Positions 1 to 29,546 of a stretch of DNA of 34,798 nt are shown here, in pieces. The notes under the pieces are model-generated. The model did no database searches, was not told the DNA's origin, and saw nothing but the letters and a program-made list of their open reading frames with translations. Positions within the stretch are counted from its first letter, which is position 1. Each line of letters opens with the position of its first letter. Source of the stretch: a virus; the IMG/VR virus record IMGVR_UViG_3300046167_000154, positions 1 through 34,798 of that record; one strand, written 5' to 3'. The position numbers and the translations under genes were made by a program.

Positions 1-149
1 ACCTACCACGGCACCGTGAACTCGTCCAACGTCGCAACGCGGCACTACGGAATGTTCACGAGATCGGGGACGAACTCCGGTCGCTAGGTCTAGACGTTGA
101 TCTTTGCGAGTGGGCGATCGTTGACGAACATTTCGAAGACGCGGCATAG
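1..149 (+). CDS. 3' part of first early gene (wraps from right edge)
   Basis: Reading from base 3 the frame is open to a TAG at 147-149. The incomplete codon at bases 1-2 is completed by the last base of the window, giving Asn, and the frame continues exactly from the gene that starts at 34627. The whole protein would be 106 residues. This half encodes 49 residues, rich in Arg, Glu, Asp and Leu and predicted mostly helical, ending in EDAA. I do not recognise the family. Because the frame runs through the junction, I take the window as a circular map. The alternative is a coincidental open frame at both edges, which is much less likely given the similar composition of both halves. Confidence 0.75.
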   Translation, partial: LPRHRELVQRRNAALRNVHEIGDELRSLGLDVDLCEWAIVDEHFEDAA

Positions 150-151
150 GA

Positions 152-199
152 GTTGACTAATCGTTGGGCATTCCCTAGAGTGTCCAACTGTGAGTCAAC
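152..199 (+). other. Strong two-part RNA hairpin between early genes
   Basis: GTTGACT (152-158) pairs perfectly with AGTCAAC (193-199). After a 4x4 internal loop, GTTGGGCA (163-170) pairs with TGTCCAAC (181-188), with one G-U wobble, leaving a 10-base loop. No T-tract follows, so it is not a typical Rho-independent terminator. The position, between two early genes and just before a very strong ribosome binding site, resembles the RNase III processing hairpins between T7 early genes (analogy only). It could instead protect a 5' end or bind a regulator. Confidence 0.6.
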
Positions 200-225
200 A
201 CACGAGCCACAGGAGGGCTTAAGAC

Positions 226-465
226 ATGCAACTACGACCATTAGGTAGCAACAAAACAGAAGTAGAATTCACAGACGGCACTACGGTGTTCTTCAGTTAT
301 GAGACACCAGTAGCACTACAGACGGCAGAGGGTCACTACTTCAAAACAGAGGACTTCTGGAGCGTCACCACGTCGAAACATATCAACCAATGGTTGAAAT
401 CCAGAGGTGCGGACTACTGCGACACACTGACACAGGACAGCATAAACGCGAGGGCTACAGTATGA
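226..465 (+). CDS. Small conserved phage protein (DUF8033-like)
   Basis: 79 residues. The start is fixed by a near-perfect ribosome binding site, AGGAGGG at 211-217, nine bases upstream. The sequence pattern (TEVEFTDGTTVFFSYETPVA, then a segment with WSVTTSKHINQWL) is that of a short beta-rich protein common in phage early regions, where versions read 'x-V-F-S-D-G-T-x-V-x-F-S-Y-x-T-P-V'. I recall it under DUF8033 but could not check. The function is unknown. The stop overlaps the next start as ATGA, implying translational coupling. Confidence 0.8.
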   Translation: MQLRPLGSNKTEVEFTDGTTVFFSYETPVALQTAEGHYFKTEDFWSVTTSKHINQWLKSRGADYCDTLTQDSINARATV

Positions 466-776
466 TACACACACACGACAGCCTAAGGTCACAGGACGGT
501 GACTTCGAAAACTACCATTACCAGCTAGACGACGGGGAGCAGTACAGGCTCACAGATGGGGAGCTAGGGTGGCTCAAGTTTGTCACTGGACGCTACACAA
601 TAGCGGACCACATACGAGAAAACCTAGTCGACGGTGTGTACACGGTAGACATAGATGGTATGAGCGAGGCGCTAGACGACGACGGGATGCATCCAAAAGC
701 CATTTGTCTATCAGATGACACGGTATTGCAATCAATATTTTTCTACAGCGCAAGCGAGGTGACAGCATGGGACTAG
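462..776 (+). CDS. Hypothetical early protein, acidic
   Basis: 104 residues from the ATG at 462, which overlaps the previous stop (ATGA). An earlier in-frame ATG at 390 lies inside the upstream gene and is unlikely to be used. The protein is strongly acidic (many Asp and Glu) with a short His/Asp-rich start. No cysteine cluster, membrane segment or catalytic motif is visible, and I do not recognise the family. It overlaps the next gene by ten bases, so it is part of the coupled early cassette. Small acidic early proteins of T7-like phages often bind host enzymes, but nothing here proves that. Confidence 0.75.
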   Translation: MIHTHDSLRSQDGDFENYHYQLDDGEQYRLTDGELGWLKFVTGRYTIADHIRENLVDGVYTVDIDGMSEALDDDGMHPKAICLSDDTVLQSIFFYSASEVTAWD

Positions 777-991
777 GACGCTACACAATCTGGTACAACC
801 ACGAGGACCACGTCTGGGACATCTACGACAGCCGGAAGGGTTTCGTGTACCCTGAGTACACCATCAACAACTACAGCGGGCTCATGGGCAAACTACGGGA
901 CCGCTTTGGATTCCTAGACACTGACAGGAACCACCAGAGGTTTTGGCGTGTGATGCGCTGGTGGGACCGACTACGACACGGGAGGCGCTAG
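767..991 (+). CDS. Hypothetical early protein, Trp/Tyr/Arg rich
   Basis: 74 residues starting inside the end of the previous gene. Composition is unusual: many aromatics (WYNHEDHVWDIY near the N-terminus, FWRVMRWWDRLRHGRR at the C-terminus) and a basic C-terminal tail. This suggests a compact domain followed by an amphipathic, positively charged helix that could contact nucleic acid or membrane. No family is recognised. The stop is followed after four bases by the next start. Confidence 0.75.
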   Translation: MGLGRYTIWYNHEDHVWDIYDSRKGFVYPEYTINNYSGLMGKLRDRFGFLDTDRNHQRFWRVMRWWDRLRHGRR

Positions 992-995
992 AGAC

Positions 996-1097
996 ATGTA
1001 CGAGAACTGGCAACCATTTTGGGACGTATTGTTGTTACTGGCGGCATCTGGTATAATCACCCTCTGGCTATACATCAAAGGAGATCCGGATGATTAA
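996..1097 (+). CDS. 33-residue membrane microprotein
   Basis: ATG at 996 follows GGAGG at 981-985. The product has a short N-terminal segment with Trp, one hydrophobic helix at about residues 10-28 (VLLLLAASGIITLWLYI) and a charged tail ending in DPDD. The end overlaps the next start, so it sits within a coupled chain. It is likely a single-pass inner-membrane peptide. The function is unknown; short early membrane peptides in other phages can affect superinfection or membrane potential. Confidence 0.65.
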   Translation: MYENWQPFWDVLLLLAASGIITLWLYIKGDPDD

Positions 1098-1212
1098 CGA
1101 CATATTTTTCTGGAGCTTTTATGCTCTGGTTTTCGGGTGGGTAGTGGGCATCCCTCTGCTCTCCCTTTGGATAGCTGTACACATACTGACAGAGGACAAC
1201 GACAATGCCTAG
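1090..1212 (+). CDS. 40-residue membrane microprotein
   Basis: ATG at 1090 overlaps the end of the preceding microprotein gene, with AGGAGA about ten bases upstream. One long hydrophobic helix spans about residues 6-32, rich in Phe, Trp, Val and Leu, with an acidic C-terminus (TEDNDNA). It is a probable single-pass inner-membrane peptide. Two consecutive membrane microproteins suggest that they act together, which is inference. The stop overlaps the start of the next gene. Confidence 0.65.
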   Translation: MINDIFFWSFYALVFGWVVGIPLLSLWIAVHILTEDNDNA

Positions 1213-1366
1213 AGAATCATGGGAAGAAGCTCACGACTACTACTACGACCAACTAGAGGCCGAAGACTACGAAGGCCTAGACGATATTGAGGAGTGGAAG
1301 GAGGAGGAGCAAAAGATTATCGACGAGCTTATACAACGGATGCAAGGGGCTTACAATGACATTTGA
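1205..1366 (+). CDS. 53-residue acidic helical early protein
   Basis: Starts at the ATG at 1205, overlapping the previous stop. The protein is very acidic, with a Tyr-rich stretch (HDYYYDQLEAEDYEGLDD) followed by a charged helix (EEWKEEEQKIIDELIQRM). No family is recognised. The extreme negative charge is typical of DNA-mimic or host-enzyme-binding peptides, but that is only a possibility. It overlaps the next gene by eleven bases. Confidence 0.65.
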   Translation: MPRESWEEAHDYYYDQLEAEDYEGLDDIEEWKEEEQKIIDELIQRMQGAYNDI

Positions 1367-1580
1367 GGAATACGAGAGGGGTTACTATGACGGGGACTCT
1401 GGAGGCCTACCAGAGCCTCCCAGAGACCCAGAGGAGCAAGCCATGATCGAACACATAGTCGAGTTTGAAACTGAGATGTTCCGCTTGGACTGCCAACGTA
1501 AATACTCTAGGCTCAACGCTAGACATTTACAAAAGATGATGATTGAGATACATGGGGAGGACTGGAGAGATGCGCTGTAA
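1356..1580 (+). CDS. Hypothetical early protein, 74 residues
   Basis: I place the start at the ATG at 1356, preceded by AGGGG at 1345-1349, rather than the upstream in-frame ATG at 1287, which lies in the middle of the previous gene. The protein opens with MTFEEYERGYYDGD, has a Pro/Glu-rich linker (GLPEPPRDPEEQ), then a long helical C-terminal half. The family is unknown. Its stop overlaps the next gene by eleven bases, continuing the coupled cassette. Confidence 0.7.
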   Translation: MTFEEYERGYYDGDSGGLPEPPRDPEEQAMIEHIVEFETEMFRLDCQRKYSRLNARHLQKMMIEIHGEDWRDAL

Positions 1581-1761
1581 AGCCTGTAATAGAATACTAG
1601 AGGAATCAGAATTGACTAAAAAGGATACACATGGTAACTTTCTTGATATTTGCGGTATTTGCCTTTCTGCTAGTGCTAGCGCAGGAGTAGACTCAGAAAC
1701 TATGGAATATTACCAATATGAGATATTTACAGAAGACGAAAACTATGATACCCTCTACTAA
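1570..1761 (+). CDS. Zinc-ribbon microprotein
   Basis: 63 residues from the ATG at 1570, directly after GGAG. An upstream in-frame ATG at 1543 is less well placed. Two CxxC knuckles (CKAC at residues 3-6, CGIC about 34 residues later) form a predicted four-cysteine zinc ribbon, followed by an acidic, Tyr-rich tail (YYQYEIFTEDENYDTLY). Such proteins are common in phage early regions and may bind nucleic acid or a host protein. The exact role is not known. It is the last gene before a 72-base gap. Confidence 0.75.
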   Translation: MRCKACNRILEESELTKKDTHGNFLDICGICLSASASAGVDSETMEYYQYEIFTEDENYDTLY

Positions 1762-1798
1762 GGTATACTTAGGTATATATACTAAAGTAGAAGCAGTA

Positions 1799-1810
1799 GT
1801 AGTTAACTAC
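1799..1810. repeat. 12-bp perfect palindrome
   Basis: GTAGTTAACTAC is a perfect palindrome in the AT-rich 72-base gap between two early cassettes (1762-1833), which otherwise holds repeated TAG/TAC triplets and TATACT-like words. It could be an operator for a dimeric protein. No convincing sigma-70 -35 element is placed for a promoter here. Confidence 0.4.
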
Positions 1811-1833
1811 AGTAGTACTACAGGAGTAAACTT

Positions 1834-2085
1834 ATGTTTATAGACGAGAAATCAATCTATGTTGTCGATGGGGGTGACTACTCCGTCTACTGCCTAGGCT
1901 ACACACAAGCCCGCACAGTGACCAATGACATCATGAAGGCCGACCCTTGGGGTGGTATTCCGTTTGTCCTACGTAAGGACCTAGAGCTGTCCTTGGACGA
2001 CCGTGGGAATGTAGTCATGACCAAGTCCACATTGGACAAGATCCTTGAGTTAGCCAGTGACGACCTACCGGAGGGTGAACAATGA
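1834..2085 (+). CDS. Hypothetical early protein, 83 residues
   Basis: Starts at an ATG seven bases after AGGAG (1820-1824), the best ribosome binding site in this stretch. The N-terminal half is beta-like (FIDEKSIYVVDGGDYSVYC) and the C-terminal half helical and acidic. No family is recognised. The stop overlaps the next gene as ATGA. It opens a second coupled set (1834-2509). Confidence 0.75.
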   Translation: MFIDEKSIYVVDGGDYSVYCLGYTQARTVTNDIMKADPWGGIPFVLRKDLELSLDDRGNVVMTKSTLDKILELASDDLPEGEQ

Positions 2086-2360
2086 AACAACCAGAGAACG
2101 GCCACACGAAGCACTTTGGCAACGACGGACCCATAGGCAACGACGCTGAAATCATTGTGTACTATGAGGAACGAGGTCCAGCAGAGCCAGTCCTACGCAT
2201 ACCCTTTTGGTACTGCAAGGACGAACTAGGGATGCACGAGCACTTTGAGGAGTCAGTACGTAGGACAGCCAAGGCACTCGCAGAGTCCTACACGTACTGG
2301 CCCGATGGGTACGTCCATGTGCAGACAATCATTAATCAGGAGTACGTAAACATACTATGA
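2082..2360 (+). CDS. Hypothetical early protein, 92 residues
   Basis: The start overlaps the previous stop (ATGA), and GGAGGG lies about seven bases upstream. The protein has a Gly/Asn-rich N-terminus, a central strand (EIIVYYEE) and a C-terminal mixed region. There is no cysteine cluster or membrane segment, and I do not recognise it. Its own stop again overlaps the next start. Confidence 0.75.
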   Translation: MKQPENGHTKHFGNDGPIGNDAEIIVYYEERGPAEPVLRIPFWYCKDELGMHEHFEESVRRTAKALAESYTYWPDGYVHVQTIINQEYVNIL

Positions 2361-2509
2361 TGACGGAACAGCAGTTAGAGCAGTGGATACGGGACAACCC
2401 GTGGAAAGCCAATGTGATCTGTCCTGCTGGGGGTATAGGATTTATGATGTTCATTATGTACACTTGCATTCAACTCATAGATTCTTTTTTGACAGGTAAA
2501 TTCATTTAG
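2357..2509 (+). CDS. 50-residue membrane microprotein
   Basis: The start ATG at 2357 overlaps the previous stop; a second in-frame ATG at 2360 follows. The N-terminal 20 residues are polar (EQQLEQWIRDNPWK). A hydrophobic segment of about 24 residues with several Met and Phe follows (GGIGFMMFIMYTCIQLI), predicting one membrane helix. Its last codons overlap the -35 element of the sigma-70 promoter for the SSB gene. The function is unknown. Confidence 0.6.
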   Translation: MMTEQQLEQWIRDNPWKANVICPAGGIGFMMFIMYTCIQLIDSFLTGKFI

Positions 2510-2517
2510 TGTATACT
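2489..2517 (+). promoter_or_regulatory. Strong sigma-70 promoter for replication genes
   Basis: The -35 element TTGACA (2489-2494) is a perfect match. A 17-base spacer separates it from the -10 element TATACT (2512-2517), which differs at one position. Transcription would begin near 2524, giving a ~50-base leader before the SSB start with GGAG as ribosome binding site. It overlaps the 3' end of the upstream microprotein gene. It would let host housekeeping RNA polymerase express the replication module independently of the upstream early promoters. Confidence 0.8.
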
Positions 2518-2572
2518 ATTAGTATGTTCTGGGGAAACCAGAGCTAAAACCAAAACCAACGGAGATTATTCC

Positions 2573-2950
2573 ATGACAGTAACAACAGTAGAAGGCGTAG
2601 TTAACTTCAGCAACCTAACAGCACACGACGTGTTCAATGGTCAATCAACTGGAGCCTACTCCATGACGGTCACATTGTCAGAAGAAGACGCAGCAGAGCT
2701 TGCAGCCAACGGTGTTAAGATCAAGGACTACCAAGGCAACAAGCAACGCAAGTTCAAGTCCAAGTACGAGATCAAGCGTTTTGATGCTGACGGTAACGCC
2801 TACACCGGAGAAGTCCCATACAACTCCAAAGTACGCCTGAAGTACAAGCTGGGTCAGCCTCACCCAGTACACGGCGTAGCAACCTACCTTGAGGCGGTCA
2901 AAGTACTAGAAGAAGCAGAGATTGCCGTAGGCGATGCCGCAGACTTCTAA
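2573..2950 (+). CDS. Single-stranded DNA-binding protein, T7 gp2.5 type
   Basis: 125 residues. It has a beta-rich OB-fold-like body with basic and aromatic residues in the middle (KDYQGNKQRKFKSKYEIKRF) and an acidic C-terminal tail that ends in ADF. A C-terminal acidic tail with a terminal aromatic residue is the hallmark of gp2.5-like SSBs, which use it to contact polymerase and helicase. This one is shorter than T7 gp2.5 (about 230 residues). It sits directly upstream of the primase-helicase, overlapping it by 17 bases, and directly downstream of a strong sigma-70 promoter, which fits a protein needed in large amounts. Confidence 0.75.
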   Translation: MTVTTVEGVVNFSNLTAHDVFNGQSTGAYSMTVTLSEEDAAELAANGVKIKDYQGNKQRKFKSKYEIKRFDADGNAYTGEVPYNSKVRLKYKLGQPHPVHGVATYLEAVKVLEEAEIAVGDAADF

Positions 2951-4541
2951 GTTCCTAAGGCACGAGAGTTGTCCGGAGTGTGGTTCTTCGGACGCTCTCG
3001 CTATCTACAGCGATGGCGGTCAGCACTGCTTTAGCTGTCAGCATCACGTTCACGGTGGAGACCAAGGCATGACCTCAGAATTACCCAAGGCCAAGCCCCT
3101 TAATTTCAAGGGAGTGGTCTCAAGCATACCCCAACGGCGCATATCTCAGGACACCTGTGGGCGCTACGGAGTCACCGTTGAGTACACCTCCACAGGTGAA
3201 ATAGACAGACACTACTACCCCTACTACGACATGTCTACGGGTGACCTGTGCGCGGCAAAGGTACGCGAGGTTCAGACCAAAGGGTTCATGTCAATGGGGG
3301 ACGTAACCAACGTCGGCTTCTTCGGACAACAACAGTGCAACCGGAACACCTACATAACGATTACTGAGGGCGAATTGGACGCCTTGGCAATCTATGAGAT
3401 GTCAGGTAAGCAGTGGGACGTGGTTTCACTTCGGTCGGGCGCAGGTAATGCCGCCAAGGAGATCAAGGCCCAGCTAGAATGGCTCGAAGGGTACGACACG
3501 GTAGTCCTCTGCTTTGACAATGACAAGGCAGGAGAAGAAGCAGTAGAGCAGGTGAAAGACCTCTTTAGCCCTGACAAGCTGAAGATCTGTAAGCTACCCC
3601 TGAAGGACGCCAGTGACATGCTCATGGCTAACAGGGTCAAGGACTTTACGCAACACTGGTGGAATTCCAAAGTTTATCGTCCTGACGGTATCGTCGCTGG
3701 CACTGACACATGGGACAAGCTGGTAGAAAAGAGGAATGTCAAGTCCATCCCGTACCCTTGGGAGGGTCTCAATCATATAACTAGGGGGCATAGACCGTAT
3801 GAACTCGTCACGATCACTAGCGGCAGTGGTATGGGAAAGTCCCAATTTATCAGAGAAATTGAGTACGATCTTCTACGCCGATGCGAAGGCAATATTGGAG
3901 TCTTGGCGCTTGAGGAAGATCTGGCCCGAACAACGCTTGGTATCATGTCGGTGGCGGCAAACAGGCCTCTACACTTGGAAGAGGACACGCCTGTGGACCA
4001 ACTACGACCGTTTTGGGAGAGCACACTGGGAACAGGACGTTACTACCTATTCGACCATTGGGGGTCAACTTCAGCAGATAACCTCCTCGCCCGTGTTCGC
4101 TATATGGCAAAAGCGCTTGACTGCCGGTACGTCATACTGGACCACCTGTCAATCGTCGTGTCTTCCCAAGAGTCAGGAGACGAGCGAAAAGCAATAGACG
4201 AGATCATGACCAAGCTTCGGACCTTGGTGGCAGAGACAGGCGTTTGTCTGTTCCTCGTGTCACACCTCCGACGATCCCAAGGTAAAGCACACGAGGACGG
4301 TGCTCAGATATCATTGGGTGAACTCAGAGGGTCTCAGGCAATCGCTCAGTTGTCAGACATCGTCATCGGTATGGAACGGGATCAGCAACACGAGAACGAG
4401 GACGTACGTAATACAACCACTGTTCGAGTGTTGAAGAATCGGTACACCGGAGAAACTGGACCCGCCTGTTGGTTAGCTTATGACCGTGCCACGGGTCGCC
4501 TGTCGGAAGTGCCTAATCCACACATAGGGGACGACTTTTGA
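2934..4541 (+). CDS. Bifunctional DNA primase-helicase, T7 gp4 type
   Basis: 535 residues, close to T7 gp4 (566). Domains in order: an N-terminal zinc finger with C13, C16, C32 and C35; a TOPRIM primase core with TEGELDAL (E145) and FDNDKAGEE (D195, D197); a linker; and a RecA-like DnaB-family helicase with Walker A SGSGMGKS (296-303), Walker B YVILDHLS, the H4 region GELRGSQAIAQLSD and an arginine-finger region near LKNRYTGETG. It synthesises primers and unwinds DNA at the phage fork with the adjacent polymerase. The start overlaps the SSB gene, and the stop overlaps the polymerase TTG start. All key residues are present. Confidence 0.95.
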   Translation: MPQTSKFLRHESCPECGSSDALAIYSDGGQHCFSCQHHVHGGDQGMTSELPKAKPLNFKGVVSSIPQRRISQDTCGRYGVTVEYTSTGEIDRHYYPYYDMSTGDLCAAKVREVQTKGFMSMGDVTNVGFFGQQQCNRNTYITITEGELDALAIYEMSGKQWDVVSLRSGAGNAAKEIKAQLEWLEGYDTVVLCFDNDKAGEEAVEQVKDLFSPDKLKICKLPLKDASDMLMANRVKDFTQHWWNSKVYRPDGIVAGTDTWDKLVEKRNVKSIPYPWEGLNHITRGHRPYELVTITSGSGMGKSQFIREIEYDLLRRCEGNIGVLALEEDLARTTLGIMSVAANRPLHLEEDTPVDQLRPFWESTLGTGRYYLFDHWGSTSADNLLARVRYMAKALDCRYVILDHLSIVVSSQESGDERKAIDEIMTKLRTLVAETGVCLFLVSHLRRSQGKAHEDGAQISLGELRGSQAIAQLSDIVIGMERDQQHENEDVRNTTTVRVLKNRYTGETGPACWLAYDRATGRLSEVPNPHIGDDF

Positions 4542-6169
4542 TCTACCTTGACTTGGAAGCCAACGGCCTGACTCCTGACACCATTTGGTGTGTCGTAACA
4601 CGGGAAAAGGGAGTAAGCACTGTGCACACTACCCCAGACACCCTCTGTAAGGCTCTAGAAGGCTCTGTGAGCGTCTGTGGGCACAACCTGATAGGTTATG
4701 ACCTCCCAGTGCTAGAACGTCTCTGGGGGCTTTCTGTGGCTCCTGAGCGCATAGTGGACACACTGGTGTTGTCACGCCTGTTTGACCCAAGCAGGCAAGG
4801 TGGGCACTCGTTGAGAGCTTGGGGTGAAACATTGGGCTTCCCAAAGGGTGACCATAATGACTGGTCTAGGTTGTCACAGGAGATGATCGACTACTGCATA
4901 CAGGACGTAGCAGTTACAGAAGCAGTGCACAAGAGTCTGACCAGAGACATGTCTGCGTTTGACCCTGAGTCAATCAAGCTGGAACACAAGGTGCAGTACA
5001 TAGTCCAGCAACAGGAGCGCAACGGTTGGGTCTTGGACCAGCAACTAGCGCGTGAACTATTAGCAACATTCAAGGAGAGAATGAATGAAATTGAAGAGGA
5101 ATTGCAGAAGAAGTTTCCTCCGATTGTACACGAGAGGTGGTCTGAGAAAACTGGTAAGCGTCTCAAGGACAAAGTTGAGATCTTCAATGTCGGATCTAGA
5201 CAACAGATTGCGCGTAGGCTATCGACGCTTGGTGTGGTCTTTGACAAAGTTACGGAGAAAGGCAACCCCATCGTTGATGAGGCTGTACTAGACACCATTG
5301 ACCTGCCAGAGGCTAAGTCAGTGAGTGAGTACTTGATGCTACAAAAGAGATACGCACAGGTCCACTCATGGTTAGAACACTTGCAGGACGACGGTAGAGT
5401 TCATGGTCGTGTCATTAGCAACGGCGCAGTCACTGGACGCATGACCCACCAGAGTCCTAACATGGCCCAAGTCCCAGCAAGCTACAGCCCCTACGGGCAC
5501 GAGTGTCGCTCCTGCTGGACTGTACCTGAAGGGAAGAAGCTAGTAGGTTTCGACGCTAGTGGCCTTGAGCTACGAATGTTGGCGCACTACATGAACGACA
5601 AGGAGTTTACCAATGTCCTCCTCACCGAAGACATTCACACCAGAAACCAAATGGCTGCAGGGCTTGAAACAAGACCTCAAGCTAAGACTTTCATCTACGC
5701 TTTCCTATACGGAGCAGGAGATGCAAAAATCGGAACTATCGTTGGCGGAAGCGCAAAAGACGGCGCACATCTTAAGCGACGATTTTTATCAAATACACCT
5801 GCTCTTGAAAGTCTACGAGAACGCGTTACTAGAGCTTCTGGGAGAGGCTATCTCACAGGACTTGATGGTAGAAGACTTAGAGTTAGATCTGAACATGCTG
5901 CATTGAATACGTTGTTGCAGGCGGCAGGAGCCATCGTGATGAAACAGGCCCTAGTCATACTGGACGACTACGCAACGCAGTGGAAACTCGACTACAACTT
6001 TATAGGAAACATACATGATGAGGTACAATCGGAGGTGGTTGCAGACCAAGCAGAGAAGTACGGCTGGCTTGCAGTCGAATGTCTCAAGGCGGCAGGGGTT
6101 CACTTTAACCTCAGATGCCCCCTTGACGGAGAATTCCAAATTGGAACAACGTGGGCAGAAACCCACTGA
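4538..6169 (+). CDS. Family A DNA polymerase with 3'-5' exonuclease, T7 type
   Basis: 543 residues. The start is a TTG overlapping the helicase stop (TTGA), supported by AGGGG eight bases upstream. The exonuclease domain has motif I (D5, E7), motif II HNLIGYD (N50, D55) and motif III YCIQD (Y119, D123). The polymerase domain has motif A FDASGLELR (D339), motif B with KTFIYAFLYGAGDAKIG, and motif C IHDE (H493, D494, E495). All catalytic acids are intact. It is about 160 residues shorter than T7 gp5, and nothing between the thumb helices looks like the T7 thioredoxin-binding loop, so it probably does not use thioredoxin as clamp. That last point is inference. Confidence 0.95.
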   Translation: MIYLDLEANGLTPDTIWCVVTREKGVSTVHTTPDTLCKALEGSVSVCGHNLIGYDLPVLERLWGLSVAPERIVDTLVLSRLFDPSRQGGHSLRAWGETLGFPKGDHNDWSRLSQEMIDYCIQDVAVTEAVHKSLTRDMSAFDPESIKLEHKVQYIVQQQERNGWVLDQQLARELLATFKERMNEIEEELQKKFPPIVHERWSEKTGKRLKDKVEIFNVGSRQQIARRLSTLGVVFDKVTEKGNPIVDEAVLDTIDLPEAKSVSEYLMLQKRYAQVHSWLEHLQDDGRVHGRVISNGAVTGRMTHQSPNMAQVPASYSPYGHECRSCWTVPEGKKLVGFDASGLELRMLAHYMNDKEFTNVLLTEDIHTRNQMAAGLETRPQAKTFIYAFLYGAGDAKIGTIVGGSAKDGAHLKRRFLSNTPALESLRERVTRASGRGYLTGLDGRRLRVRSEHAALNTLLQAAGAIVMKQALVILDDYATQWKLDYNFIGNIHDEVQSEVVADQAEKYGWLAVECLKAAGVHFNLRCPLDGEFQIGTTWAETH

Positions 6170-6178
6170 GGCTAACGT

Positions 6179-7045
6179 ATGAAGAACGTGTACACACTAG
6201 TGTCGGACATCTACAAACTGATGGAGACGAAAGAAGTAGCAGAAGGTGTGGACCTAGAGTCTGCTATTGATCTCTTCGGAGAGAACGTCAAGGACCTCAT
6301 GCGTAACGAGTTTGGTGGGCGTAAGCGTGACGGGCGTAAGCTACGCATGTCTAACATCGGACGTGAGGACCGCTACTTGTGGAACGTCTACAACGACGTA
6401 GAAAAGTCCGATGAGATCCAAGGCCATACCTATGTCAAGTTCCTCTACGGCCACCTCATTGAGGAGATGCTACTGTTCTTAACAAGGGCCGCAGGTCATG
6501 AGGTAACGGATGAACAAAAGAAATGTGAAGTTAACGGTATTACAGGTTCGATGGACTGTAAAATCGACGGTATTGTTACTGACGTTAAAAGCACTTCAAC
6601 TTATGGGTTTAAAAAATTCAAAGACGGTTCACTGGCTTATGACGACCCATTTGGATACGTGGCTCAAATTAAAGGATACGCGTATTCAGAAGGTGCTACT
6701 AAATTTGGATGGTTAGCAATGGACAAACAGAATGGTCACCTCACGTACCTCATGTACGACGAGGAGGACACTCAGGCCCCTGTCTATGACCTAATCAGCT
6801 ATGACATCAAGGAGCGCATTGAACACGTAAAAAAGCTAGTGGAGCATCCAACCCCGCCCGACGTATGCTACGGCACTATCGACGATGGAAAGAGTGGGAA
6901 CCAAAAACTCGCCGTCGGATGCTCCTACTGCTCCTACAAAAAGGTTTGTTGGCCTACCATTCGCGCCTTCGCCTATTCCTCAGGTCCCCGTTATTTAACA
7001 GAGGTGCATAATGAGCCGAAAGTCCAAGAAATCACGATTTCGTAG
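6179..7045 (+). CDS. PD-(D/E)XK exonuclease, Cas4/RecB-like, with C-terminal cysteines
   Basis: 288 residues. The core GSMDCKIDGIVTDVKS carries the PD-(D/E)XK nuclease signature (D126/D130, D135, K137), with a preceding acidic helix GHLIEEM (H92, E95/E96). The C-terminus has a cysteine cluster, VGCSYCSYKKVCW, with another Cys about 20 residues earlier (PDVC). This is the pattern of the 4Fe-4S cluster that closes Cas4/AddB-type nucleases. By position, between polymerase and endonuclease I, it replaces the T7 gp6 exonuclease, likely acting in host DNA breakdown and recombination. It overlaps endonuclease I by 35 bases. Confidence 0.85.
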   Translation: MKNVYTLVSDIYKLMETKEVAEGVDLESAIDLFGENVKDLMRNEFGGRKRDGRKLRMSNIGREDRYLWNVYNDVEKSDEIQGHTYVKFLYGHLIEEMLLFLTRAAGHEVTDEQKKCEVNGITGSMDCKIDGIVTDVKSTSTYGFKKFKDGSLAYDDPFGYVAQIKGYAYSEGATKFGWLAMDKQNGHLTYLMYDEEDTQAPVYDLISYDIKERIEHVKKLVEHPTPPDVCYGTIDDGKSGNQKLAVGCSYCSYKKVCWPTIRAFAYSSGPRYLTEVHNEPKVQEITIS

Positions 7046-7400
7046 CACGTTTGAAGACGATGTCAGCAAAGTACTAAAGGAGTTTGACTATGAGCCTTTC
7101 ACTATCCCCTACACTATTTCTAGGTCTTATCGTCCTGATTTTGTCGATAGCAGCGGTTTATCTCTTGTTGAATGCAAAGGATATTTCAGAGACGGAGATA
7201 CGAAAAAATATACGAGCATCAGGGACTCACTCCCCGAAGGACAAGAGTTAGTCTTTGTTCTCATGCAACCGAACAAGAAGATTCGGAAGGGGGCTAAGAT
7301 GACTATGTCAGAATGGTGTGACAAAGAGGGAATTTTATGGTATACTATAGAGACACTACAGGAGTTGATTGACCATGTCGCTAACACTAGAGGAAGTTAA
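7011..7400 (+). CDS. Endonuclease I, Holliday junction resolvase, T7 gp3 type
   Basis: 129 residues (T7 gp3 has 149). Catalytic residues are visible in the family order: E15 in FEDD, D43 in RPDF, and E54/K56 in VECKG. The enzyme resolves branched DNA and helps degrade host DNA and debranch replicated concatemers before packaging. It starts inside the end of the exonuclease gene, so the two are probably coupled. Its 3' part contains a sigma-70-like promoter for the genes downstream. Confidence 0.9.
   Translation: MSRKSKKSRFRSTFEDDVSKVLKEFDYEPFTIPYTISRSYRPDFVDSSGLSLVECKGYFRDGDTKKYTSIRDSLPEGQELVFVLMQPNKKIRKGAKMTMSEWCDKEGILWYTIETLQELIDHVANTRGS
7318..7346 (+). promoter_or_regulatory. Sigma-70 promoter inside endonuclease I gene
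   Basis: GTGACA (7318-7323; five of six -35 bases) is separated by 17 bases from TATACT (7341-7346; five of six -10 bases). Transcription would start about 20 bases before the next gene's start codon. It would give separate expression of the small acidic protein, the DUF3310 protein and the ribonucleotide reductase. Confidence 0.6.
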
Positions 7401-7551
7401 GGAACGCCTCTTGAAAACCTTTGACCCGGACGACCTGCTGGAGGCCCTACAGATAACCTCAGAAGAGATGCTGGACAGGTTTGAGGACAAGCTAATCAAC
7501 AGACTAGATGTGTTTGAACAAGAGCTAGAGGAGGAAGAAAATGAGTATTGA
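7375..7551 (+). CDS. Small acidic helical phage protein
   Basis: 58 residues from the ATG at 7375, with GGAG ten bases upstream. An alternative TTG lies two codons earlier. The protein is strongly acidic and helical: LTLEEVKERLL, then FDPDDLLEALQITSEEMLDR, ending in a run of Glu. The same arrangement of a short acidic protein before DUF3310 occurs in other T7-like marine phages as far as I recall. The function is unknown. It overlaps the endonuclease I gene and the next gene. Confidence 0.7.
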   Translation: MSLTLEEVKERLLKTFDPDDLLEALQITSEEMLDRFEDKLINRLDVFEQELEEEENEY

Positions 7552-7819
7552 CGATGCGACTCCTGCAGAGTGGGACGGGATTTCTATACTGAAGAAGACG
7601 AAGAAGGTAGATCCTGTGGAGCAACCTGACCACTACAACAAAGGATCAATCGAAGCTATCGAAGCAATCAAAGCGTCCATGCCTGAACATGAGTTCAACG
7701 GTTATCTCAAGGGTAACGCACTAAAGTACCTCTGGCGCTATGACTACAAAGGTAAACCAGTAGAGGACCTACGGAAGTGTCGCTGGTACATCGAACGACT
7801 AATTAAGGAACTAAATTAA
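7541..7819 (+). CDS. DUF3310 protein (T7 gp1.7-related nucleotide kinase family)
   Basis: 92 residues. The DUF3310 pattern is clear: PDHYNKGSIEAIEAI, then FNGYLKGNALKYLWRYDYKG, then a DLRKCRWYIERL helix. T7 gp1.7, which contains this domain, is reported to be a nucleotide kinase, so a role in nucleotide supply fits the neighbour, a ribonucleotide reductase whose start overlaps this stop by one base (TAATG). This protein is half the size of T7 gp1.7, so kinase activity is uncertain. Confidence 0.8.
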   Translation: MSIDDATPAEWDGISILKKTKKVDPVEQPDHYNKGSIEAIEAIKASMPEHEFNGYLKGNALKYLWRYDYKGKPVEDLRKCRWYIERLIKELN

Positions 7820-9690
7820 TGGACGCATATCAACAGTACATACACAAGTCACGCTACGCTCGTTACCTGCCAGAGGAACAGCGGCGGGAGACTTGGGAAG
7901 AAACAATTGACCGCTACCTAAGCTTCTGGATTGAGAAGGATAAGCTAACACTAGAGCAGGCTAACGGTATCTTTGCAGACATCCATGACATGGGCGTTAT
8001 GCCTTCCATGCGAGCACTCATGACTGCTGGAGAAGCACTAGACCGTGACAATGTAGCTGGGTTTAACTGCTCCTACATGCCTATCGACCACCCTAAAGCA
8101 TTTGACGAAATGATGTACGTCCTTATGTGTGGCACTGGTGTGGGCTTTAGTGTGGAGCGTCAGTACGTAACAAAATTACCAGAAGTAGCAGAGGAATTCC
8201 ATGATACCGATACCGTTATACATGTCGCCGACAGCAAAATTGGATGGGCTAAAGCTTACCGGGAACTTGTTAGCTTGTTGTATTCAGGCCAACTTCCGAA
8301 ATGGGACGTGTCTGGAGTACGACTTGCAGGGGCAACCCTTAAGACCTTCGGAGGTAGAGCATCTGGTCCAGAACCTCTTGTCGATTTGTTCAACTTCACA
8401 GTCAGCGTCTTTCGGGAAGCTGCTGGACGTAAACTTAGCTCCATTGAGTGCCACGATATCTGCTGTAAGATTGCACAGATCGTCGTTGTCGGAGGTGTAC
8501 GCAGGTCCGCTCTCATCAGTCTGTCTAACCTCACTGACGATAGACTCCGACGATGCAAGTCAGGCCAATGGTGGCAAGATAATCCTCAACGGGGACTAGC
8601 GAACAACAGCGCGTGTTACACAGAGAAGCCAGACTTTGAGGCGTTTTTAAATGAGTGGAAAAGTTTATACGAGTCCCGCTCCGGAGAACGAGGAATGTTC
8701 TCTAGAGTCGCAAGTCAAAAGCAAGCTGCAAAGAACGAGCGACGAGATGCTACCTATGATTTTGGAACTAATCCATGCTCAGAGATCATCCTCAGGCCCT
8801 ACCAGTTCTGCAATCTATCGGAAGTTGTTGTCAGGGCAGGAGATACGTTGTCAGACCTTAAACGAAAAGTACGTGTTGCGGCTATCCTTGGGTCTCTTCA
8901 GGCTACGCTAACCGACTTCCGCTACTTACGTAAAGTATGGCAGAAGAACACAGAAGAAGAAGCACTGCTAGGTGTATCACTAACAGGCATCATGGACCAC
9001 GCCGTGTTGTCAGGGAGGGAAGATCGTGAGAAACTTAAAGATTGGCTCGTGGCTCTCAAAGAGGAGGCGATTAGTACTAATAAGGAATGGGCTACTAAGC
9101 TTGGTATTAATATTAGCACTGCCATCACTGCTGTTAAACCTTCCGGTACTGTTAGTCAGTTGGTTGATTCTGCTTCTGGCATCCACCCTAGATACTCAGA
9201 TCAATACATTAGACGAGTTAGAGCAGATGCAAGAGACCCGCTCTGTCAAGTCCTTGAGGCAGCAGGAGTGCCCGTAGAGGACGACGTAATGTCACCCACT
9301 ACCAAGGTATTCTCCTTCCCCATAAAGTCGCCTGAGGGGGCTGTGGTGGCCTCTGAGATGGGTGCTATGGAGCAACTTGAGCTTTGGGAGATCTATCAGG
9401 ACTTCTGGTGTGAACATAAGCCGTCAATGACGTGTTACTACCGTGACGATGAGTTCCTTGAGGTGGGTCAGTGGTTGTACAACAAGTTCGACAAGATCAG
9501 TGGCGTAAGCTTCCTGCCTTACTCTGAACATACGTACCAACAGGCTCCTTATGAACCTATTGATCTGGAGACGTTTGAGAAGTTGAAGGAGGAGTTTCCT
9601 GAGACCATCGACTGGAACATCTCTGAGAACTCTGACATGACTGAAGGGTCGCAACAGTTGGCTTGTACAGGAAACAACTGCGAGTTGTAA
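7819..9690 (+). CDS. nrdJ: Class II (adenosylcobalamin-dependent) ribonucleotide reductase, monomeric type
   Basis: 623 residues. It makes deoxynucleotides from ribonucleotides using vitamin B12. Family residues line up with the Lactobacillus leichmannii enzyme: C84 in FNCSYM; N318, C320 and E322 in TNPCSEI; C331 in FCNLSEV (the same 11-residue gap as C408-C419 in the reference enzyme). A KPSGTVSQL loop and a C-terminal shuttle pair C616/C621 in CTGNNC are also present. It is about 115 residues shorter than the reference. No small radical subunit is encoded, as expected for class II. It is the last large gene of the plus-strand arm. It requires a host that makes or imports cobalamin. Confidence 0.9.
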   Translation: MDAYQQYIHKSRYARYLPEEQRRETWEETIDRYLSFWIEKDKLTLEQANGIFADIHDMGVMPSMRALMTAGEALDRDNVAGFNCSYMPIDHPKAFDEMMYVLMCGTGVGFSVERQYVTKLPEVAEEFHDTDTVIHVADSKIGWAKAYRELVSLLYSGQLPKWDVSGVRLAGATLKTFGGRASGPEPLVDLFNFTVSVFREAAGRKLSSIECHDICCKIAQIVVVGGVRRSALISLSNLTDDRLRRCKSGQWWQDNPQRGLANNSACYTEKPDFEAFLNEWKSLYESRSGERGMFSRVASQKQAAKNERRDATYDFGTNPCSEIILRPYQFCNLSEVVVRAGDTLSDLKRKVRVAAILGSLQATLTDFRYLRKVWQKNTEEEALLGVSLTGIMDHAVLSGREDREKLKDWLVALKEEAISTNKEWATKLGINISTAITAVKPSGTVSQLVDSASGIHPRYSDQYIRRVRADARDPLCQVLEAAGVPVEDDVMSPTTKVFSFPIKSPEGAVVASEMGAMEQLELWEIYQDFWCEHKPSMTCYYRDDEFLEVGQWLYNKFDKISGVSFLPYSEHTYQQAPYEPIDLETFEKLKEEFPETIDWNISENSDMTEGSQQLACTGNNCEL

Positions 9691-9734: not shown

Positions 9735-9869
9735 ATGAACATCAAACGTGACATTGAGATCCGCATTAGAGTACTTGAGAACAAACTACAAAGGTCTATA
9801 CCTGCTGCTCGCAACAACGAGATTAGAGGTGAGATCATGGGTCTGAAGTGGGTGCTAGAGCGTCTCTAG
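9735..9869 (+). CDS. 44-residue charged helical protein
   Basis: ATG at 9735, after the terminator hairpin. The product is one long amphipathic, basic helix pair (IKRDIEIRIRVLENKLQRS, then NNEIRGEIMGLKWVLERL). It is compact and coiled-coil-like, and I do not recognise it. Its TAG (9867-9869) overlaps the opposite-strand stop of the last late gene (9866-9868), so the converging arms overlap tail to tail by about four bases. No strong ribosome binding site is seen, so expression depends on read-through or weak initiation. Confidence 0.5.
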   Translation: MNIKRDIEIRIRVLENKLQRSIPAARNNEIRGEIMGLKWVLERL

Positions 9870-11494
9870 TCTTCCTCTTGTTGTCCTCTGGCTCCAACAC
9901 CAGCAGCCGTAGTCAACATACCAGCAGACCTTAGGCGCTCGCCTTTGACAACCTTAGGGTCTGCTTTTATACCTGCTATTTCTTTTACAAGTTCTTGATA
10001 GGACTGAGTCATTTCTTCCTTTGCAGGGACTTCAATTTTCCTAGCAAGCTTCATTGCGTCTTGACTAGCTGCGTTGAAGATCATAGGAGGCGTAGCGTTT
10101 ACAATTCGGTTGGGCAGCGCTTTTTCTACCGCCTTACCTACGACAGGTACATTCTCAAGGAAGTTGTTTTCGTCAGACACAACCGCTGTTACTCTTCCTC
10201 TAGGAGTTATTTTACCTACGTAGTTTACACCTCCTTCTGTAATTGCCGACCCTTCCATTGATCCAGTGAAGTAAAAACCGCCGTTCTCCTTAGCGTTAGC
10301 GAGTATTTCTTCGTCTGTTTTCCCCATCTTTGGGTGTAGTCTAAGCTTAGACTCGCTTTTGAATTTTTTAAGAATTTCTTCGTTACTGGCTGTCTTCTTG
10401 TTGGTAAAAATTTCAGAAAACTTACGAATCGGCCCTTTATGTACAAAGTCAAACGCATGGTTGCCTGTTTGATAAGTAGTAGGAGTTTTTACATTGATTA
10501 CTGGAGACGTTGCATCAGCAAACCGCTCTGTTTTTTCTCCTTTACCTACCTGCCAGACGTTACCCATATGTTCTTCAAAAAAGTCAAGGTCTTTTTGAGG
10601 CGTGTTGTTTCTAGCGCCAACTTGATTTACCAAGTCGGAGTAAACACCGGGACGGAAAGGAACAGTATCGGACATATAGCTTATTCGGTCTACTGTATCA
10701 AGCGCAGGGTCAACAGGCCCTTGTCGTCCACGTCGAACATTTGTTACAATGTTTTGCTGACCTTGTGAAATAGCCTTGGATAAGTCTCTTTGCGTACCAC
10801 CAGCCATCTCTTGTGCTACGTCTCTGGTTGTCGGATTGACGCCTGTGCTGTAGTAAAAGGCACGACTGTCGGGGTCCGTTAAATTAAATAAACCCTTTTT
10901 CGTACCTTCTCCAGCCCACTTAACAAAATCTTGTATTTTTGTTCGGCCTTTCATTACTTGTTCAGCGTTTTTAGCATCTTTAACTTCGTTTGCTATCATC
11001 GGACCAACTTTAGGTATTCTTCTGACCTTATTAGCAAACGCTTGTGGGTCCCTAGCTACGTAGTTATCCAGCCTATTAGGTTTGGCATCCTTTGGAATAT
11101 CAGTAGGCCCGTAGAAGTTAGGGATGTAATTCCTAGGAGAACTCAAGAACAACCCGGCGTTTTCCTGAGCCCTATTTAGGTTAGGAAGAGCCTCTTGTGT
11201 AATTTGAGCGCCCCTACGCATCATACCAAGACCACCTAAGGGAATGTAGCTGGCAGGAGTCAGTGCTTCTTCAGCAATAAAGTTAGCAGGGGCCATAGCG
11301 TCAACTGTGGTTGTTTCTACAGGACCAAAAGCATTAGGACCTCCTCTCATTCGTTCTACGCGAACAGGAGCAGTTCCAAAGGGTTTCTCAACAACAGGAT
11401 TGACCACAGCAGAAGCAGCTTGTTTTCTGTACTGTCGTGCCTTAGGTCCTACCCTAGAAGCCGCTTTACGTAGCTCTAAGTAATCATTGCTCAT
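9866..11494 (-). CDS. Probable internal virion / ejection protein, 542 residues
   Basis: Last gene of the late operon. It begins MSNDYLELRKAASRVG and is basic at the N-terminus. A Pro/Ala-rich stretch (ALTPASYIPLGGLGMM) follows, then a mixed alpha/beta body and an Ala/Gly-rich end (RSAGMLTTAAGVGARGQQEED). No catalytic motif is certain; the segment NGGFYFTGSMEGSAITEGGVNYVG is distinctive, but I cannot name its fold. Large proteins encoded next to tail tubular genes in podoviruses are usually ejected into the cell. The start overlaps the upstream gene by 11 bases, so they are coupled. Confidence 0.65.
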   Translation of the reverse strand: MSNDYLELRKAASRVGPKARQYRKQAASAVVNPVVEKPFGTAPVRVERMRGGPNAFGPVETTTVDAMAPANFIAEEALTPASYIPLGGLGMMRRGAQITQEALPNLNRAQENAGLFLSSPRNYIPNFYGPTDIPKDAKPNRLDNYVARDPQAFANKVRRIPKVGPMIANEVKDAKNAEQVMKGRTKIQDFVKWAGEGTKKGLFNLTDPDSRAFYYSTGVNPTTRDVAQEMAGGTQRDLSKAISQGQQNIVTNVRRGRQGPVDPALDTVDRISYMSDTVPFRPGVYSDLVNQVGARNNTPQKDLDFFEEHMGNVWQVGKGEKTERFADATSPVINVKTPTTYQTGNHAFDFVHKGPIRKFSEIFTNKKTASNEEILKKFKSESKLRLHPKMGKTDEEILANAKENGGFYFTGSMEGSAITEGGVNYVGKITPRGRVTAVVSDENNFLENVPVVGKAVEKALPNRIVNATPPMIFNAASQDAMKLARKIEVPAKEEMTQSYQELVKEIAGIKADPKVVKGERLRSAGMLTTAAGVGARGQQEED

Positions 11495-13091
11495 TCTCAG
11501 GCTCCTGATTCACTTCATTCAGCATCTGCGCCAGCATTACCTTGTCAGCACGAAGGGTTGCCATAGTCTCTGCGGTCACGTTAGCGCCTTGGATCATTTT
11601 GTCAGTAGACTTAATCAACTCCCGAAGAATCTCCGCACGTCTACGCTTACGTGACAACCGGGCAAGACCTACGCCTACTCCAGTTCCTGCGGCAACAGCA
11701 GCAACTACGGGCATACCACCGACCGCAGCAGTACCAGCAGCAGCAGTAGCACCAAGGGCCAACGGTGTAGTAGGGAAGCGGAGACCAGAGAAGTCTTCGA
11801 TACCTTTGACCGTACGTCCCAACATGGTCTGGTTTATGGCCTTACCTGCCTTGACATCCAGTAGATTCTTAGCTCTGAACAACATAGCCATACCGTTGAT
11901 AAGACGATAGGCTTCGTCATCTGGCATCAACTTAAGGAATGCTTGGTTCAGCTCGTCCCTTACGTACTTACCTGCTACTTCTTTTGCACTAGCTAAGTCA
12001 GGGTTCTCAAGACCTGCTGTGGGCTTCTTACGGAAAATCTGCTTGTCCAACTGACGACGCACCTCTAGGATGTCTCTGGCAGTGATCTTGCCACCTTTGG
12101 ACGCCTTTTCGTTGAGTCTCTTGACAGCCGTGTCGATCAACAGGTCTACCTTCTTCTGTGCGTCAGGCATTAACTCAACGTAGTCATCAAGGTCATGGAA
12201 GCCAGCCTTGAGTTCTTCCAGAGTGCTAGACAGGTCAGCTACGTCGGTCTTAGGGTTCTTAGACCGCTTGATGTACGACTGTAGGTCTGCCTCATGTTTC
12301 GCCAGTTGTCCGTCTACAACCTTAGCGTTTACAGCGGGGTTTCGGTCACCTTTGTACTCAGGGAGTTTTGCCAAGTAGTCAATCACGTTGTCTTCGGAAG
12401 GCGACGGTACGTACACGTTACGGTTCATGGCTCCTGTAGGCTCTACAGTTCCCGGAGCTTTGACGTAGTCTTCAGGTAGTAGACTATCTGCTACTGCCTT
12501 ACGCTCTTCCTCTAGGACAGCCTGTGTTGCTCTTCCTGAGGCCATACGTACTGAAGCACTAGGTCTAGGGATGGACGGGAGTGCCATCTTAGGCCCAGCA
12601 CCAGCAATGTTGAGGAGGGCTTCAGCAGTAGTAGCCTCCTCTGGGTATGCCTGTGCTAACTCACCGACCTTCTCCATTCCACGCTGAAGCATAGAACCTT
12701 CGTACGCCTCTGAGACACCACGTTGGACAGCCTCAGGAGTGTACCTACGGTAGGCTTCTCCTGCTACTTCTCCTAGCGTCTCTCCAGCGGCCCCAACACC
12801 AGCAGCAAGCGTAGTGCCTACTCTGAACTTACCGGGCAGTCTTTCGACATCCCCAGCAAGAGTACTTCTATAACGCTCACGGGTCTCTTGAAAACGCTCT
12901 GGTGTTTCCCTAATCATCTCTCGCATACTCTCAGGTTCACGAGGGCGTGGAGGGGTTACAGTAAATGTTTCTCCCTCAACAATACCAATGACTTCTCCTG
13001 TCTGTTTGTTAGTGGCAGTCTTGAGCGGCAACCATTGTTCACCGTCCCAGTATATTTTCTGTCCTGTCTGTGGATTAGTCGCTGTCTTCAT
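11484..13091 (-). CDS. Probable internal virion protein with N-terminal TG/W repeats, 535 residues
   Basis: The N-terminus holds two related ~23-residue units starting KTATNPQTGQ and KTATNKQTGE, the first with a WDGEQWLPL core. This short motif occurs at the N-terminus of large podoviral virion proteins. Long charged helices follow (ERFQETRERYRSTL; DILEVRRQLDKQIF). A strongly hydrophobic Ala/Gly/Val segment near residues 445-475 (LGATAAAGTAAVGG, PVVAAVAAGTGVGVG) is flanked by RLSRKRRR and could insert in the membrane during DNA ejection. No lytic transglycosylase motif is seen. Confidence 0.65.
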   Translation of the reverse strand: MKTATNPQTGQKIYWDGEQWLPLKTATNKQTGEVIGIVEGETFTVTPPRPREPESMREMIRETPERFQETRERYRSTLAGDVERLPGKFRVGTTLAAGVGAAGETLGEVAGEAYRRYTPEAVQRGVSEAYEGSMLQRGMEKVGELAQAYPEEATTAEALLNIAGAGPKMALPSIPRPSASVRMASGRATQAVLEEERKAVADSLLPEDYVKAPGTVEPTGAMNRNVYVPSPSEDNVIDYLAKLPEYKGDRNPAVNAKVVDGQLAKHEADLQSYIKRSKNPKTDVADLSSTLEELKAGFHDLDDYVELMPDAQKKVDLLIDTAVKRLNEKASKGGKITARDILEVRRQLDKQIFRKKPTAGLENPDLASAKEVAGKYVRDELNQAFLKLMPDDEAYRLINGMAMLFRAKNLLDVKAGKAINQTMLGRTVKGIEDFSGLRFPTTPLALGATAAAGTAAVGGMPVVAAVAAGTGVGVGLARLSRKRRRAEILRELIKSTDKMIQGANVTAETMATLRADKVMLAQMLNEVNQEPENEQ

Positions 13092-13093
13092 GT

Positions 13094-14356
13094 TTATTCG
13101 TCCAATACAAAGCCGGGTTCTAGTAGTAGTTCTGCTTCTTGAGGCTCCTCTGGCATGGTTATAGGCATAAACGAAGTCATATTGTTTTCACCAAGGCGTT
13201 TTGCAGTGGCAGAACGTACCCTATTAAATCTTTCAAGAGTATCAACCATAGCTTTTCTGCGAATTTTTAACAAATTAAGCAAGGATTGTTGTTGCCCTTT
13301 AATGTCAGCAGCAGCAATCAATTGGGCGTATTCTCTATCCGCGTCTGATAATCCAGTACCTGAACCAAAGTCTTTAATTTGTTCAGCAACTATCTTACCT
13401 GCTTCTGAAATAAAGGTTTCAGCATTTGTAACAGCAGGGTCATAAGGCAAGCCAATGAGTTCACCAAAGCGTCTGAGGTTTAGCTCTACGTTAGCCGCAA
13501 GACCCGTAGGCATACCGCCTTCTAAACGGGAAGTCTGTCTGTCGATCAACTCAACCATGTCACGAGCGTTTTGAGCTTTTTCATTAAACTCAACAAACTC
13601 TTTAACATTAGCTTTTGCCATCTCTTCGGCACCGACTTGTTGGCTCGTGTCTACAATCTGCTGTACGACATTTGGAGCCTTGCGTACCAACCCTAGCTCA
13701 CTGGCCTTAACGTAAGAGTTAGTCTGGTCATTGTAGACTAAACCAAAGTCGTTGACGTTGACGGCCTGAATTTTACCCTCTGAGTCCTGCCAAGCCTCTA
13801 GCTTACCAGTGCGTCCCTTCAACAGGTCGTCTGCTTCTTCAGCCGAAAGAGTACCCATAGCCGTAATCTGAGCTGGACTAAACCCAGCCATCTTTAGTCG
13901 TGCCTTGATGACCTGTGGGTTGTCCAGAGGCAGTTGCTCAATCTGAAACTCTCGTACGTCCTTGCTGATAGCCCGTAGCTCGTCCATGTCCGTAGTAGAC
14001 CGTGCAGTCGCTGCTTGGTCCGTAAGGCCTGCTGCTTCTGCTGCTACTGCTACTTGCTCTTGGAAAGCACTTAGTTGGGTTTGTGCTGCGGCCTGCGCTT
14101 GTAGTTTACGTGCTGCTTCTTCGTACTTTACAGCATTAGGAATGTCACCCTGTTGTCGGTAAAACTGAGCTAACTGAAGCAACCCTTCGGGCGAGCTAGT
14201 GTTAATTTGAGACAGTTGTTGTTTTTCTTGTTGCTGCCGTTGTTGCAAAGCCCTCATCTGAGGAGCTTGACCAACACCACGAGCAGCAGTAAACAAACCC
14301 TCCTGATAAGAAGGCTGTAACAGACCTTGTAAAAATGCTTGTGAAAACTTAGCCAT
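13094..14356 (-). CDS. Probable internal virion protein, Gln/Ala-rich, 420 residues
   Basis: Opens with MAKFSQAFLQGLLQPSYQE. It then has a Gln-rich coiled-coil region (RALQQRQQQEKQQLSQ; ARKLQAQAAAQTQLSAFQEQ), TPR-like spacing at residues 55-90 (LLQLAQFYRQQGDIPNAVKYEE), a middle beta segment and a helical C-terminal third, ending LLLEPGFVLDE. The pattern matches ejection proteins placed after tail tubular genes in marine podoviruses. The exact function is unknown. Its stop is two bases before the start of the next gene downstream. Confidence 0.65.
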   Translation of the reverse strand: MAKFSQAFLQGLLQPSYQEGLFTAARGVGQAPQMRALQQRQQQEKQQLSQINTSSPEGLLQLAQFYRQQGDIPNAVKYEEAARKLQAQAAAQTQLSAFQEQVAVAAEAAGLTDQAATARSTTDMDELRAISKDVREFQIEQLPLDNPQVIKARLKMAGFSPAQITAMGTLSAEEADDLLKGRTGKLEAWQDSEGKIQAVNVNDFGLVYNDQTNSYVKASELGLVRKAPNVVQQIVDTSQQVGAEEMAKANVKEFVEFNEKAQNARDMVELIDRQTSRLEGGMPTGLAANVELNLRRFGELIGLPYDPAVTNAETFISEAGKIVAEQIKDFGSGTGLSDADREYAQLIAAADIKGQQQSLLNLLKIRRKAMVDTLERFNRVRSATAKRLGENNMTSFMPITMPEEPQEAELLLEPGFVLDE

Positions 14357-14367
14357 GATAGCCCTCG

Positions 14368-15006
14368 TTAATCAAATGGATTTAAAGTTTTAAAGATGTT
14401 GCCAAGCCCTTCGCCAACGTCACCAAATAAACCACCTAAGTCAAAACCGCCAGCATTAATAACAGTACCGTCTTTGGCAAGTGCTGGTGTAAACAAACCA
14501 GCAAGTACGTTAGAGCCTATACCGCCTAACAGGTTAGCTCGTGCTTGCTCTGCCAACAGTCTAGACTCCAGACCAGACATAGCAGTCTCACCAAAGAGTC
14601 CTGTACCGTACAACTGAGCTTGTTGCTGTAGCTCTGCCATGCGCTGTGCTGGTTGTGCTGCTGCTAACAACTGTGTTTGTGGTAGGTAGCTTGCACCAAG
14701 GAACTGTTGTCCTAATCCTGCTTGCTGTGCTTGCTCTGCCTGAGCCTGTTGCATAGCCCCTAGCATAGCTCTGTTACGAGCTTCTTCTTGCGCTGTAGCC
14801 ATAGCCAGCATTTCAGGAGTAGCACCGCCGTAAGCAGCAGAGCTAACACCAAGCCTACCTTGTGCCGCTAGACGCTCTTCTAAGGCAAGACGTTGACGTT
14901 CTTCTTCAGGCCGCTGTGCTGCCCTCATACGCTCGAATATGGCTTGCTCACGAGCTTGAGTAGGCTGTACTGCTTGACCAAAGAAACCACCTGCACCGCC
15001 AAACAA
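14368..15006 (-). CDS. C-terminal fragment of frameshifted internal virion protein
   Basis: 212 residues, formally starting at a TTG with no clear ribosome binding site. It is very rich in Ala and Gln (REQAIFERMRAAQRPEEERQ; QQAQAEQAQQAGLGQQFLG), with a Gly-rich end (GGFDLGGLFGDVGEGLGNIF). The frame is continuous with the upstream fragment if one extra base at about 15013 is ignored: the join then reads EQAMQQQLFGGAGGFFGQ. I therefore take it as the C-terminal part of one ~495-residue protein. A genuine overlapping gene is the alternative. Confidence 0.55.
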   Translation of the reverse strand: MFGGAGGFFGQAVQPTQAREQAIFERMRAAQRPEEERQRLALEERLAAQGRLGVSSAAYGGATPEMLAMATAQEEARNRAMLGAMQQAQAEQAQQAGLGQQFLGASYLPQTQLLAAAQPAQRMAELQQQAQLYGTGLFGETAMSGLESRLLAEQARANLLGGIGSNVLAGLFTPALAKDGTVINAGGFDLGGLFGDVGEGLGNIFKTLNPFD

Positions 15007-15856: not shown

Positions 15857-15869
15857 AATTATCTCCCGA

Positions 15870-16643: not shown

Positions 16644-16875
16644 TGCCTGCTACGGTGTCTGACAACGTCATAGAAGCAGGAGAAGTAGCGCCGTCGTACA
16701 CAATAATGCTGTGCTTACCAAAGATAATTAACAGACCGTTGTGTGCCGCTAAAGCTACAATCTCGTCATAACCATCAGGGCCAGACCTTTAGATACATCA
16801 ATGTTGCCGCTAGAGCCTCCCGACCATGCTGCTCCGTCTAACAAATCAGACCAGTAAATAGTAGACTTGTTAGTA

Positions 16876-17397: not shown

Positions 17398-17398
17398 A

Positions 17399-22577: not shown

Positions 22578-22579
22578 GA

Positions 22580-23247: not shown

Positions 23248-23261
23248 TAGGCTTCTCCTAG

Positions 23262-26042: not shown

Positions 26043-26059
26043 GCTTACTGTGATCTGCG

Positions 26060-29544: not shown

Positions 29545-29546
29545 CT

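Follow-up and report, generated by a model that had tools for sequence, protein, structure and literature searches.

A probably complete tailed-phage map from environmental DNA, circular in gene order, with its ends abutting inside a probably mosaic early gene

The two ends of a virus record can be ends of the genome, or they can mark a place where a closed map was cut when it was written as a line. The window analysed here, a whole virus record of 34,798 bases (IMGVR_UViG_3300046167_000154), raises this question because its last and its first bases read as parts of one and the same gene. Our explanation, in which we have good confidence, is that the window maps a tailed phage completely, that this map is circular in gene order with its ends abutting inside an early gene, and that the cut arose where the assembly broke at a branch between strain variants of this probably mosaic gene and is not a physical end.

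The genes of the window are arranged in two arms. The rightward genes start at 34612 and continue across the window edge to 9690; the leftward ones occupy 34066 down to 9866. The leftward late arm (9866..34066, minus strand) holds the tail, amidase, holin, major head protein, portal, TerL and endolysin-like genes, and the remainder of the rightward early and replication arm (150..9690, plus strand) holds a Gp2.5-like SSB, a primase-helicase, DNA polymerase A, a Cas4-like exonuclease, an endonuclease and a ribonucleotide reductase of the B12-dependent type. The divergent region between the arms (34067..34611) was taken as non-coding, with short ORFs of 66–102 codons present, and at 34340-34465 it has three 23-nt repeats of the AGTTGGCAYGG type, 74–83% alike, which are possible sites for a regulator or for a replication origin. 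The portal family suggests that the phage is podovirus-like, and the Roseobacter-phage relatives of its ribonucleotide reductase suggest that it is probably marine.

Some differences in gene content between the window and its relatives were observed along the way. The SU10-type portal gene (29961-32088, minus strand) is broken over two frames near 31300 in the window; it is a single open frame of 687–688 codons in the related records G001–G006, and the two halves share one frame in 83 of the 83 related loci that hold both. The split is either a sequencing error or a gene broken in this strain. Two window ORFs at 15870-17445 (minus strand), one of them amidase-like, match a single 522-codon open frame in G001, G002, G005 and G006, which is a possible second frameshift, and the primase-helicase gene of G004 (the same contig as L022) is split in a similar way; together these splits hint at error-prone assemblies. 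About 340 additional bases lie between TerL and the endolysin-like gene in G001, G003, G004, G005 and G006, and are absent from the window (33338-33341) and G002. In L115 (G016, a record of 58,241 bases), L110 (G011) and L089 (G010) the TerL is about 90–92% identical to that of the window, yet nothing matches the window primase-helicase, which suggests either that the replication module has been exchanged or that these records stop before it.

The first-pass annotation had proposed that one frame spans both edges, and this proved correct: 34627-34798 joined to 1-149 gives 321 nt, that is 106 codons and a TAG at 147-149, with no internal stop. The first 57 codons and one base (34627..34798, plus strand) cover the start and helix 1 of a predicted hairpin and form the conserved half; codon 58 consists of base 34798 and bases 1-2; and the stretch from the remainder of codon 58 to the TAG (1..149, plus strand) covers the hairpin turn, helix 2 and the tail, and is the divergent half. 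An alternative in-frame ATG at 34612 (MRIII-MTKQ) would give 111 codons, but relatives such as L009 and L011 have a stop codon two codons upstream of the start, so that a start at 34627 fits the family. The open frame across the edge, taken alone, is weak evidence of closure, as 444 of 20,000 random joins of two window points stayed open over the same length (p ~0.02). Around the edge, scans for promoters and terminators gave counts close to the shuffled expectation, and a promoter-like site at 153-181 was dropped as evidence on that account.

Much stronger evidence comes from relatives. When the 106-residue protein was looked for in other phages, as had been proposed, related contigs were found to carry the gene in one piece. 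A locus search gave 22 viral contigs; a profile search recovered all of these and added L131, L139 and L140, for 25 loci in total. Residues 1–57 and 58–106, searched separately with tblastn, both match all 25 family contigs and lie in one frame in every one of them; they are adjacent within 9 nt in 24, the exception being L012, where they are in frame at an offset of 12 nt. In L019 the contig stops within the gene, and the second half is matched just in part and weakly (E 0.01). Of the 18 loci mapped against the window genes, 14 have late genes (minus strand) to one side of the gene and early or replication genes (plus strand) to the other, and the remaining four are one-sided (L009, L010 and L131 with the late side only, L011 with the early side only). 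In each of L012, L014, L015 and L022 a single contig links portal and TerL, by way of the gene, to the ribonucleotide reductase.

Because the family contigs join both halves and the late and early genes flank the gene, the gene order is circular, and the earlier claims that the window is a full circular map and that the early arm runs through the record edge are supported: in relatives, a single contig carries the late arm, then the gene, then the early arm. What is circular, as far as gene order can tell, is the map; circular DNA, circular permutation and collapsed terminal repeats would fit alike. The exact rank of the gene varies, since it lies farther from the late/early junction than in the window in L009, L014, L017 and L018, and the sequence preceding it differs in L009, L011 and L018.

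The product is acidic (pI 4.6), and the motif SHRTLS is invariant across 18 aligned family members, an alignment that leaves out L019, whose gene is cut by the contig end, and the near copies L004, L005 and L008. The protein gave no tblastn match at E≤1 in 50,697 phage records, and none of the six stretches that matched a pattern in the genome contig collection was a relative. Its second half searched alone found just four contigs, all already in the family (58–63%). The best Pfam match reached 18.6 bits, under the cut-off of 27, PHROGs gave no match at 0.01, and the 18 members gave likewise weak matches against family databases. Fold searches gave nothing at E≤0.001, and a single match to a solved structure (E 0.027) was disregarded. 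By sequence, then, this is an unannotated family of small acidic proteins.

The window has no exact repeat at its ends and no BLAST repeat between its first and last 1500 nt, and therefore the closure rests on homologues; the record itself is no proof of it. Four relatives close to the window in size (34,591–35,178 bases) have their cuts elsewhere. On window coordinates the cuts lie at 26590/26592 in G001, at ~15.0–15.6 kb in G002, at ~23 kb in G003 and, by extrapolation, at ~18.9–20.8 kb in G004. The L001/G006 contig spans the join of G001 without gaps (1200 nt, 98.6%), G001 spans that of G002 (85%, 5 gaps), the ends of G003 overlap each other, and the join of G004 is covered by no relative. 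End repeats are present in five of eleven near-full records (G003, G007, G008, G010 and G011) and absent from six, the window included. Their lengths vary (141 exact, 646 at 96%, 1178 at 91%), and the three that can be placed lie at ~6–7, 23 and 32–34 kb. The differing cuts and end repeats are what one would expect of closed maps opened at arbitrary places; circular permutation would fit as well as terminal repeats, which leave no trace once they are collapsed in assembly.

A comparison with the closest relatives adds a point beyond the first-pass annotation: the second half of the window gene is a divergent variant that begins at the edge. The window is 100% identical to L001 over the 390 nt up to its last base, including codons 1–57 (171 nt), and over the remaining 149 nt of the gene the identity is ~64%. 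After the stop codon it rises again to 93–100% in 30-nt bins, a single bin excepted (86%), until about +450, where the L001 contig ends. The best single changepoint between the two is the edge column itself. Against all eight complete relatives L001–L008 the second half of the window is 64–67% identical at the nucleotide level, as compared to 96–100% before the edge, and ~64% is the nearest that the second half of any family contig comes to that of the window. There is no such step between L002–L008 and L001, which are 96–99% identical before and 93–99% after the same point. After the gene, the window is 80–100% identical to L005 in the same 30-nt bins, and the similarity to L003 is lost again from about +210. 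The second half has a pN/pS of 0.33 against L001, and as it is thus under constraint it looks like a real gene variant and not like sequencing noise. The cut of G001 also lies at an identity step relative to the window (73–95%, then 97–100%, per 100 nt); no cliff was seen at the G001 cut against G006, nor at the G002 cut against G001.

It is unlikely that the cut and the identity cliff fall on the same base independently. PMC11443906 connects strain heterogeneity with complex viral assembly graphs and fragmented assemblies. In the present case, the linearly written record has its ends abutting in the gene that opens the rightward early arm, and the cut sits at the left border of a variant segment of ~150 nt, which is the second half of that gene. 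We infer that an assembly graph of co-existing strains branches at this border, and that the assembler may have opened the circle at this very base because the graph would branch there.

Mosaic or hypervariable small early genes are known in tailed phages, and similar breaks are found in the family within contigs that have no interruption. The identity of L012 to L014 and L015 is 97% as far as column 48 and falls to 62% past it, and in the comparison with L018 its first half is 79% and its second half 90% identical. A changepoint with LLR > 8 was found in 131 of 231 pairs (L019 left out), and 99 of these 131 lie at columns 45–59, an excess that is partly due to a generally faster second half and that comes from non-independent pairs. 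An AlphaFold2 model from 18 family members, with L001 as the first row, has helices at 20–46, 48–53 and 59–84 (mean pLDDT 75); the identity border would lie near the turn of the hairpin, as these predicted helices bracket it. This gene is probably mosaic by nature, its first half being conserved and its second half variable, and the window copy is most likely mosaic relative to its closest kin. Its position and variability suggest a role in early host takeover or host interaction.

The identity drop precisely at the edge can also be read to mean that the ends come from different co-existing strains, that the 106-residue protein as written is not real and that the true right end continues with a second half like that of L001, or with another one. 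The 20-mer spanning the junction is absent from the viral contig collection, and so is the left-end 20-mer. End overlaps of just 91% (G007) and 96% (G003) suggest, moreover, that contigs can go round the circle into another strain. However, the recovery of identity with L001 between +150 and +450 places the left end of the window in the same close clade as L001, the join is in frame and of fitting length, and breaks like this one occur where no contig was interrupted. A closure across strains is for these reasons rather unlikely, although it deserves consideration.

A physical end would mean that the packaged DNA is linear and starts or ends at or near the edge, with direct terminal repeats collapsed in assembly. 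Mapped contig ends of TerL-selected relatives do pile up in the late/early junction region, where 18 of 39 fall 300–1400 nt upstream of TerL, as compared to 7 of 51 on the downstream side, counting only ends that map to the window within 300 nt. But these ends are scattered over ~1 kb with no single site, and the cluster was set aside as a genome end on that ground. The other full-size records have different cuts, the end repeats seen in near-full records differ in length and the placeable ones also in position, and an end within a coding gene would be odd; we consider this explanation very improbable. That the end frames were joined by accident, and that the window is an incomplete fragment, is hardly credible, even if random joins of window points do at times remain open: both halves independently match one gene in all of the family contigs, and both arms flank it in most of the mapped loci. 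For the gene order the homologues refute chance, and a few codons missing at the edge are possible.

The start of the gene has a further feature. An inverted repeat, TGAGAATCATTATCA (34613..34627, plus strand), shares its final base with the start codon, as the A of the ATG, and resembles the Fur-box consensus. It is the sole window site with at most two mismatches, as compared to 0.067 expected, and none of 40 shuffles reached two mismatches. Among 68 junction regions taken from relatives, 17 contain it with at most one mismatch, each time with TG after it, and the other 51 have no such close match. In L014, L054, L064 and L074 the ATG after the repeat begins a different reading frame, of 60–81 codons, and as other first frames follow it, the repeat belongs with the leader and not with the edge gene. 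A literature search found no paper joining Fur box, phage, early promoter and iron, which does not prove that there is none. It is conceivable, as a tentative and rather doubtful extension of the mosaic gene, that the protein has two modules, with recombination at the hairpin turn swapping the second helix and tail from one strain to another, and that the conserved leader, with its candidate operator overlapping the start codon, stands before differing first genes. The product would then be an arms-race protein, its variable half facing a changing host target, and its synthesis would perhaps respond to the iron status of the host.

A map with abutting ends is ordinary for phage records from environmental DNA, but in this one the cut falls just where related strains start to diverge. 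In gene order the record is a complete map, and it serves as a worked example showing that the place where an environmental phage record happens to be cut can reflect differences between strains and not a genome end; the variable early gene is a candidate for a gene of host interaction. The phage belongs to a group for which the TerL scan matched at least 600 stretches, without a close match in the phage records searched (with TerL, the 106-residue protein and window 23000-34798). TerL matches in phage records are partial, none over 80% of its length, and among the matches listed (15) they are 31–42% identical; megablast of 23000-34798 found no match in the 50,697 phage records. The ribonucleotide reductase, by comparison, is 62–64% identical over its full length to the cobalamin-dependent enzymes of the Roseobacter/Lentibacter phages CRP-403 and ICBM2.

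The circular complete viral contigs among environmental viral genomes, as presented in PMC5332604, are likewise full-length tailed-phage maps with an arbitrary start, redrawn circularly permuted for comparison. Those contigs were called circular from an end overlap of at least 50 bp at >94% identity, whereas the window is without an end overlap and its closure comes from homologues. With the mosaic early genes of tailed phages the edge gene shares its place after a long divergent region, its fast change and its exchanged neighbours, but in the window the border of the exchange lies inside the gene, near a predicted hairpin turn.
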